A DNA stretch of 64,000 nucleotides from Blastocatellia bacterium (GTDB taxonomy: Bacteria; Acidobacteriota; Blastocatellia; Chloracidobacteriales; Chloracidobacteriaceae). A program made the translations under genes and the position numbers. The notes under the pieces were generated by a model, which saw nothing but the letters and a program-made list of their open reading frames with translations, made no database searches and was not told the DNA's origin. The DNA is taken from NCBI GenBank assembly GCA_019695185.1, contig JAIBAN010000001.1:62001-126000 (forward strand), in the 5' to 3' direction. This document shows positions 2,040-56,599 of this stretch, piece after piece (position 1 is the first letter of the stretch; the number at the start of each line of letters is the position of its first letter).

Positions 2040-2063
2040 CCGGGCAAGGGTACAGGAGGTAAA

Positions 2064-2594
2064 ATGAAAAAAGTTCCCCAGGAAGTTTTGAAATTGCCGG
2101 TGACCGGGCTCAATCTGGATGCCAAAACCTTGGGCGGTCAAATTGCGAAAACCGGTACCTTGTTGGTTTTCCTCCGGCATTTTGGCTGACTGTTTTGTCG
2201 TGAGTGCGTAAAGGATTTACGCCGCGTCGCAACGGAAACTGCCAATTATCCGCCGGTTCTTTTTTTCTTCATGGCCGATGTGGAAGCCGGAAAACCGTTC
2301 TTTGAGTCGCTCTGGCCTGAAGCCCAGGCCGTTTCCGACCCGGAACGGCACTTTTATGATGCTTTTGGCCGCAAACATGGAACCATCGGCCAGTTTTTGA
2401 GTCCGGGAGCCCTCACCGCAGGAGTCCGGGCTTTATTCAAAGGCAATTTCATCGGGGCCCCGGTGGGTGACCCGCTCGTTATGCCGGGTTTTTTCCTGGT
2501 ACGGAAAGACGGTCAGGTGGTGTGGGAATATCTTTCCGCCCATACGGGTGACCATCCCGATTTTGCCAAAATACCATTTCAGGGAAAGGACTGA
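2064..2594 (+). CDS. Peroxiredoxin-like (AhpC/TSA type) probable selenoprotein, UGA read as Sec42
   Basis: Read through the in-frame TGA at 2187-2189, this is a 176-residue thioredoxin-fold protein. The ATG at 2064 has an excellent Shine-Dalgarno (ACAGGAGGTAAA). The segment before the TGA is LLVFLRHFG and the segment after it is LFCRECVKDLRR, which together match the redox site of PRXL2/AhpC-TSA-like proteins (usually R-x-G-C-x-x-C-R-E), with TGA at the first cysteine. That gives a U-x-x-C motif. Homologous sequence continues in frame to 2594 with no other stop. A SECIS-like hairpin follows at 2206-2222. The alternative, a recent nonsense mutation, is less likely because the rest of the frame is intact and the stop falls exactly on the redox residue. 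Standard callers would report only the fragment from 2271. The true stop lies inside a heptad repeat. Confidence 0.75.
2206..2222 (+). promoter_or_regulatory. SECIS-like hairpin for selenocysteine insertion
   Basis: A perfect 7-bp stem (GCGTAAA / TTTACGC) is closed by the loop GGA. The loop begins 24 nt after the UGA, so 23 nt lie between. As I recall them, published bacterial SECIS criteria ask for a small apical loop with a G in its first two positions, about 16-37 nt after the UGA; this element fits. It lies within the coding sequence. No selA, selB or tRNA-Sec is visible in the window. Confidence 0.65.
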
Positions 2595-2712
2595 GGACTG
2601 AGGACTGAGGACTGAGTTAATAATGAGAACCCTGGAAAACTCAGAGGGTTTCATTTTGTAAAAACTTTGGGAGGTCATTAACTCAGTCCCCAGTCCTCAG
2701 TCCTCAGTCCTC
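2588..2712. repeat. Heptad inverted repeat, unit GGACTGA
   Basis: The left arm has four tandem GGACTGA units plus GTTAA (2588-2620). The right arm (2678-2710) is its reverse complement with one mismatch, giving a potential 33-bp stem around a 57-nt loop. The selenoprotein stop codon lies within the first unit. The right arm ends 9 nt before the next start codon. The hairpin fills the whole gap. Confidence 0.92.
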
Positions 2713-2719
2713 AAAAAAT

Positions 2720-10254: not shown

Positions 10255-10260
10255 ACAACA

Positions 10261-10385
10261 GGACTGAGGACTGAGGACTGAGGGCCGAGTAATTTTGGTT
10301 GCAATTGATACATTTCAGTCAACTGCATGGAACAACTCAGTCCTCAGTCCTCAGTCCTCAGTCCTCAGTCCTCAGCCCTCAGTCC
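10261..10385. repeat. Heptad inverted repeat, unit GGACTGA, unequal arms
   Basis: The left arm has three GGACTGA units plus a diverged GGGCCGAGT (10261-10290), the right arm about seven CTCAGTC units (10335-10385), with a loop of about 44 nt between. The right arm is much longer, as expected if unit number expands or shrinks by slippage. In two frames the right arm is open and yields a false N-terminal SVLSPQS extension on the next gene. Confidence 0.9.
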
Positions 10386-10403
10386 CGTTTTATTCTTCAT
10401 CTG

Positions 10404-28260: not shown

Positions 28261-28378
28261 GAGTCTGGGAGTTTGAGAAAGGACTGAGGACTGAGGACTG
28301 AGAAAAGGAGAAATCAAGGGAATCAGAAAAGTCATATCAAACTCAGTCCTCAGTCCTCAGTCCTCAGTCCTTTTTATT
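28261..28378. repeat. Heptad inverted repeat, unit GGACTGA, with nonad fragment
   Basis: Three GGACTGA units (28281-28301) and about four CTCAGTC units (28341-28373) enclose a 38-nt loop. GAGTCTGGGAGTTTGAG (28261-28277), next to the symporter start, is a fragment of the nonad family. The right arm reaches the stop of the next minus-strand gene. Confidence 0.88.
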
Positions 28379-37751: not shown

Positions 37752-37753
37752 CA

Positions 37754-37880
37754 GGACTGAGGACTGAGGACTGAGGACTGAGTTTCTTGTTCGTTTATCA
37801 CAATAGCTCATTTGATTCCCGAAGTCTTATGGTAGTTTAGCACTCAGTCCTTAGTCCTCAGTCCTCAGTCCTCAGTCCTG
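37754..37880. repeat. Heptad inverted repeat, unit GGACTGA
   Basis: Four GGACTGA units (37754-37781) and about five CTCAGTC-type units (37842-37879, one with a T substitution) enclose a loop of about 60 nt. The first arm starts two bases after the DUF4132 stop. The second arm is followed by AAAAAATATG, the same decamer that follows the element at 2588-2712. Confidence 0.92.
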
Positions 37881-55831: not shown

Positions 55832-55957
55832 TGGGTTTGCCTCTGTGTACAAATGAATTCAAAGAGCACAAAACTTGTGCTTCAGGTAAAACGGCCATTA
55901 TAGGCATAGCCGCCCGGACTCTGCAAATCAGGGACGCCAACCGGAAGCAGAAAACCA

Positions 55958-56095
55958 GGACTGAGGACTGAGGACTGAGGACTGAGGCTAAAGAAACTCA
56001 TTGGTGTTCCAAATCAACGTGCCGGATTTGAATACCCGGAACCGGATTTTTAGCCATTCGGTCAGAGAAAAAACACTTAGTCCTCAGTCCTGAAT
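55958..56095. repeat. Heptad inverted repeat, unit GGACTGA, long loop
   Basis: Four GGACTGA units (55958-55985) face two CTCAGTC-type units (56076-56093) across about 90 nt. The right arm ends at the stop of the macro-domain gene. It separates that gene from tig on the minus strand. Confidence 0.88.
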
Positions 56096-56599
56096 TAGAG
56101 CTTTCTGATAACAGCGCAGGTCGGCTTTGGTGTAGCAGACCACTGTAACCTGTTCAAGCGAGGTGTTGGTGGCGAGAAATGTCTTGATTTCATGCAGGGC
56201 AATGCGGGCTGCCCGTTCGATGGGAAAGCAAAAGGCTCCGGTGCTGATGGAAGGAAAAGCAATGGTTTTGACCCCATGTTCAACTGCCAGCCGTAGACAA
56301 TTCCGGTAACAATTGGCCAACAGTTCGTCCTCATTGTTTTTGCCGCCCTTCCAAACCGGTCCCGGCGTGTGAATCACGTATCTGGCTGATAGCCGGTAGC
56401 CTTTCGTGATTTTGGCTTCCCCGGTCCGGCATCCGTTCAGTGTTTTGCATTCAGCCAGCAGGTCCGGCCCGGCGGCATAATGAATTGCGCCGTCCACGCC
56501 GCCTCCGCCCAGGAGCGAGGTATTTGCCGCGTTCACAATCGCATCAACTTCCTGTTGTGCAATGTTGCCCTGAACCAGGGAAATTCGCCCGTTACCCAT
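56084..56599 (-). CDS. Macro domain protein, ADP-ribose-binding/deacetylase type
   Basis: A 171-residue single macro domain. [33 protein letters not shown] and [10 protein letters not shown] are the ADP-ribose-binding loops of YmdB/MacroD-type proteins, which hydrolyse O-acetyl-ADP-ribose or remove ADP-ribose from proteins. VIHTPGPVW replaces the usual HTVGPxW. It is divergent from the DUF4328 gene with 74 nt between. No DarT-type toxin is next to it, so it is not obviously an antitoxin. Confidence 0.92.

Follow-up and report, generated by a model that had tools for sequence, protein, structure and literature searches.

The gene at positions 2064-2594 of the analysed window, a stretch of 64,000 nt from contig JAIBAN010000001.1 of a Blastocatellia bacterium, almost certainly encodes a selenoprotein, predicted from the sequence to be a PRXL2/SelL-related redox protein with SelB-dependent selenocysteine (Sec) at residue 42 (Table 1). 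This prediction, put forward in the sequence-only reading as a selenoprotein with UGA at the redox cysteine, is supported by the Sec machinery of the genome, by a UGA/Cys column in the alignment of homologues, and by a conserved bSECIS-like hairpin. The identity of the hairpin and of the UGA column across genomes argues most strongly against chance. In the cell, Sec is presumed to be inserted at UGA 2187-2189.

Table 1. Features of the selenoprotein locus, heptamer arrays of the window and further candidate selenoprotein genes of the same genome
Feature	Position	Strand	Description	Evidence
Predicted selenoprotein gene	2064..2594	+	176 aa, Sec at residue 42, stop TGA 2592-2594	NF040769, PF13911, alignment with 9 homologues
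Shine-Dalgarno AGGAGG	2054..2059	+	upstream of ATG 2064-2066	read directly
UGA codon, predicted selenocysteine 42	2187..2189	+	U-L-F-C motif	column TGA in 68/126, TGC/TGT in 58/126 homologues
Cys45 codon	2196..2198	+	presumed resolving residue of U-x-x-C	aligns with residue 47 of human PGFS
bSECIS-like hairpin	2206..2222	+	7-bp stem GCGTAAA (2206-2212)/TTTACGC (2216-2222), loop GGA (2213-2215)	cross-genome identity, synonymous-recoding p = 0.005
SelW-like candidate selenoprotein	G000:C85:10734-10943 (L173)		CGAU, context EYCGAUGYY	TGA + hairpin
AhpC/TSA candidate selenoprotein	G000:C142:13854-14255 (L174)		YWUPWC, context GYWUPWC	TGA + hairpin
Thioredoxin-type candidate selenoprotein	G000:C174:8340-8675 (L175)		WASWUGPC	TGA + hairpin
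GGACTGA arrays in the window	2587-2713, 10257-10389, 16339, 26483, 28281-28370, 37752-37880, 42203, 55945-56107

Reading frame and protein family

The sequence-only reading had described an ATG frame behind a strong Shine-Dalgarno sequence, running through one TGA to position 2594, and a perfect 7-bp stem with a GGA loop 16 nt past this TGA; both were found in the DNA exactly so. The TGA is the sole internal stop of the frame and lies within FLRHFG-U-LFCRECVKDL of the translation. The whole product matches the NCBIfam family NF040769, "SelL-related redox protein", with 145.3 bits (cut-off 120), as do 10 of 10 aligned homologues, and reaches 39 bits for PF13911 AhpC-TSA_2 (Pfam, PRXL2; gathering cut-off 27), while the score for the peroxiredoxin family PF00578 AhpC-TSA (Pfam) is below the cut-off (11.9 vs 26 bits).

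Among proteins of solved structure, human prostamide/prostaglandin F synthase (PGFS; E 0.005) is the closest in sequence, with C44 and C47 aligned to U42 and C45. In the AF2 model, which was built from a ten-homologue alignment and has a mean pLDDT of 91, residue 42 is situated just ahead of the first long helix, starting at 43. The top PDB fold match is again human PGFS, in the structure of its C44S/C47S mutant, and ResA/TlpA occur among the structural matches as well. As part of the joint claim stated at the outset, and with the same near certainty, the product is modelled as a single-domain thioredoxin-fold, peroxiredoxin-like (PRXL2/SelL-related) protein.

Since just one stop breaks the frame, the locus might be regarded as a pseudogene in which a Cys codon turned into TGA and the remainder is decaying, but the 134 codons past the TGA are intact and the product is 47-51% identical to its homologues over full protein length. 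Moreover, the TGA is found at the same place in dozens of genomes and the hairpin is kept base for base between genomes, which leaves decay highly improbable. The ORF that a standard gene caller would list begins at the internal ATG 2271; a functional product from there (107 aa), with the upstream part untranslated or forming a separate short peptide, would lose the catalytic motif and the first strands. This start is without a Shine-Dalgarno sequence ahead of it, whereas a strong one precedes 2064 and residues 1-41 are conserved as protein, so that translation from 2271 appears no more credible than decay. The gene is easily halved or missed by standard annotation.

Probable selenocysteine decoding in the source genome

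The source genome (8.33 Mb, 99.7% complete) contains a tRNA-Sec above the Rfam cut-off, which ARAGORN identifies as tRNA-Sec(UCA), together with SelB (387 bits), SelD (386), and SelA (547), all above cut-off and without stops. Thus selA, selB, selD, and tRNA-Sec, the four genes by which the sequence-only reading had proposed to judge its claim, are all present. In case of FdhA as a Sec-decoding control, no TGA was found among the matches listed for this genome, and searches for SelW and AhpC/TSA took its place. At least three other genes of the genome carry TGA at a classical Sec site, namely the SelW-like, AhpC/TSA, and thioredoxin-type candidates (L173, L174, and L175), each with a stem-loop after the UGA and a G opening the loop. 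Due to the full Sec machinery and these additional genes, the organism very probably decodes Sec.

Near-cognate read-through of the UGA as Trp or Cys, or a reassignment of UGA, would likewise give a full-length protein; nothing specific speaks in favour of these routes. A genome-wide reassignment is contradicted by the TGA that serves as stop at 2592 of the same gene and by the presence of SelA, SelB, SelD, and tRNA-Sec(UCA). Further, the aligned residue is Cys in 58 of 58 non-UGA homologues, in part by construction, because the motif filter applied to the homologue collection demanded U or C at the site. Decoding by another route is thus very unlikely, if marginally less so than decay or the internal start, and Sec insertion is retained as the predicted route.

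Hairpin downstream of the UGA

Sec insertion in bacteria needs a hairpin just downstream of the UGA, as stated in the sequence-only reading, and the conserved bSECIS-like form is found only in the UGA versions of the closest orthologues. As in other bacterial selenoprotein genes, the hairpin lies just 3' of the UGA, and its small apical loop carries an early G, here at +24 from the UGA. It is included in the minimum-energy fold, and the fold energy is unremarkable compared to dinucleotide shuffles (z -1.5). In place of this non-significant shuffle test, synonymous recoding was used: among sequences encoding the same peptide, an equally good stem with an early-loop G at +16 to +37 is rare (p = 0.005).

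The hairpin GCGTAAAGGATTTACGC is identical at 17 of 17 nt in the window, L022, L025, and L029, orthologues that are only about 50% identical as proteins, and the version of L032, GCGTAATGGATTTACGC, is one base off. Nucleotide comparison revealed it in none of the Cys orthologues, where the sequence is unrelated. Combining the synonymous test over the sets gave a Fisher p of 6e-12 for the Sec set, which is optimistic because the Sec rows are related and not independent, and of 0.70 for the Cys set. More distant Sec members possess stems of other sequence with the loop AGTT at +26, in which pairing is kept through two-sided changes; such stems occur in 17 of 63 distinct Sec rows vs 1 of 54 Cys rows. 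In some Sec homologues, e.g., L033, L034, and L077, a crude scan detected no good simple hairpin. Overall, this pattern is as expected for a bacterial SECIS element under selection.

Homologues and Sec/Cys exchange

A homologue was matched in 24 of 58 related genomes (the source genome included), the closest orthologues being about 47-53% identical to the product. Either UGA or Cys in place of U is found in the same alignment column, as the selenoprotein reading had anticipated: in the closest set, TGA is present in five genomes (L022, L025, L029, L032, and L033) and TGC/TGT in L023, L024, L026-L028, L030, and L031. The in-frame UGA thus occupies the position of a redox-active Cys of Cys homologues, as is typical of bacterial selenoproteins. 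The Cys forms of this set belong to one Chloracidobacterium genus of the window's own family; the Chloracidobacterium records L091 and L092 apparently contain the same genes as these Cys forms, which would place the window in that part of the Acidobacteriota. Of the 58 relatives, 50 have SelB above cut-off, among them most members of the Cys-form genus, and due to this retention the loss of Sec in that genus is not attributed to a loss of the machinery. Closely related Sec and Cys forms in a single bacterial family, with SelB retained, provide useful material on why Sec is kept or lost.

Among 396 Acidobacteriota genomes, 60 contain NF040769 matches at E <= 1e-15, and 45 of the 65 matches listed contain a TGA, which in the inspected subset is located at the motif. 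Blastocatellia and other Acidobacteriota hence hold many such Sec genes. Whereas a single-protein search of the genome contigs gave no match, an alignment-based search then revealed loci in other phyla. The resulting collection of 126 homologues from several phyla, filtered by motif for U or C, contains UGA in 68 and Cys in 58 members at the site. On their tree, Sec and Cys were switched 19 times, and at least 11 of these switches are forced by well-supported branches. The Acidobacteriota homologues L047, L054, L057, and L065 carry two in-frame UGAs in a U-x-x-U (SelL-type) motif.

Genomic neighbourhood and heptamer repeats

A comparison of five genomes showed no conservation of the gene neighbours, which therefore give no operon clue. 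A small gene for a coiled-coil protein with internal repeats ETNARIDETNARIDETN is situated at 1587-2039 of the window and ends 24 nt upstream of the selenoprotein gene; no adjacent match to it was found in the relatives compared.

The heptamer GGACTGA forms tandem arrays in the window and genome-wide, often as inverted pairs about 45-100 nt apart that constitute long potential hairpins, with arms of 31-35 nt and 94-97% complementarity in the three best pairs inspected. The stop codon of the selenoprotein gene falls within the first GGACTGA unit. For GGACTGAGGACTGAG, 35 matches were counted in the window, where none are expected. Three-unit arrays occur 1147 times in the 8.3-Mb genome, 9 times in the relative G014, and not at all in 13 others; GGACTGA is a massively amplified, lineage-specific repeat. 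Rfam matches near the gene (microRNA, one snoRNA) are below threshold, are located almost exclusively on the heptamer inverted repeat, and were rejected as spurious.

Predicted mechanism and activity

In the proposed mechanism, SelB with Sec-tRNA(Sec) would dock on the hairpin past UGA 2187-2189 and Sec would be placed at residue 42, after which translation would proceed to the TGA at 2592. Judged from fold and motif, we infer a catalytic cycle in which Sec42, at the N-terminal end of the first long helix, would act as the attacking residue, reduce a peroxide, endoperoxide or disulfide, and become oxidised. The oxidised Sec42 would then pair with Cys45 as a selenenylsulfide and be recycled via cellular thiols or thioredoxin. 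The predicted activity is most likely that of a selenium-dependent thiol peroxidase or thiol-disulfide oxidoreductase.

With Sec inserted as proposed, the protein may be an oxidoreductase and not a peroxidase, acting on a protein or small-molecule disulfide. This possibility, to which we assign somewhat less than an even chance, is favoured by the U-x-x-C motif beside a helix N-terminus, a thioredoxin-type arrangement, by ResA/TlpA among the fold matches, and by the listing of prokaryotic Prx-like UxxC/UxxU selenoproteins as 'thiol:disulfide oxidoreductase' (PMC9312934). On the other hand, PGFS, a PRXL2 enzyme, is the best match in both sequence and fold, and the second Cys is lost in 11 of 68 Sec homologues, which is more in keeping with a peroxidase than with a dithiol exchanger.

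In these 11 Sec rows (L022, L101, L107, L110, L116, L119, L127, L128, L129, L132, and L139, from Blastocatellia-type, Acidimicrobiia, and Planctomycetota genomes) the second Cys is replaced (U-x-x-P/Y/A/S/R), in about four separate lineages, vs 0 of 58 Cys rows. Plain Fisher statistics give p 9e-4 for this Sec-only loss, but with correction for relatedness the median p of the sign test is 1, and it is thus treated as a hypothesis. It is tempting, if rather doubtful, to speculate that Sec freed the family from a two-thiol mechanism, with many Sec/Cys exchanges and the resolving Cys lost only in Sec lineages. If true, the PRXL2/SelL-related family would represent a natural test of the chemical benefit of Sec.

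Comparison with known selenoproteins

Eukaryotic SelU/PRXL2A belongs to the same AhpC-TSA_2 superfamily as the window protein, and the eukaryotic SECIS sits in the 3' UTR. Set side by side by description only, SelU/PRXL2A and the window gene thus differ in the location of this element, which in the latter would be the hairpin directly past the UGA. SelU/PRXL2A contains Sec in fish and Cys in most mammals (PMC2397514). Human PRXL2B, the prostamide/prostaglandin F synthase (PDB 9us9, 9usa), is a Cys enzyme of animals with about 17% identity to the window protein; its substrate is not transferable.

Among prokaryotic systems, a peroxiredoxin-like PF13911/cd02970 selenoprotein with U-x-x-S is catalogued (PMC9312934, PMC13188914), as are Prx-like selenoproteins with U-x-x-C and U-x-x-U (PMC9312934). 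The U-x-x-S protein, compared by description only, shares AhpC-TSA_2 and the first-position Sec with the window protein, which has U-x-x-C instead. SelL is described with U-x-x-U and a diselenide (Shchedrina et al. 2007, PNAS, as cited in PMC2397514). Both belong to the Prx-like family and carry Sec in a redox motif with x-x spacing, and U-x-x-U relatives occur in the tree of the window protein; because its own motif is U-L-F-C, i.e., U-x-x-C, the latter is classified as SelL-related and not as SelL proper. The SelL-related family is already described by NF040769, so that 'unannotated' does not mean an unknown family, and nothing examined sets the window protein apart from it as a U-x-x-C member. 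UGA/Sec recoding in a bacterial Prx-like protein is established biology, to which the window gene adds a family member.
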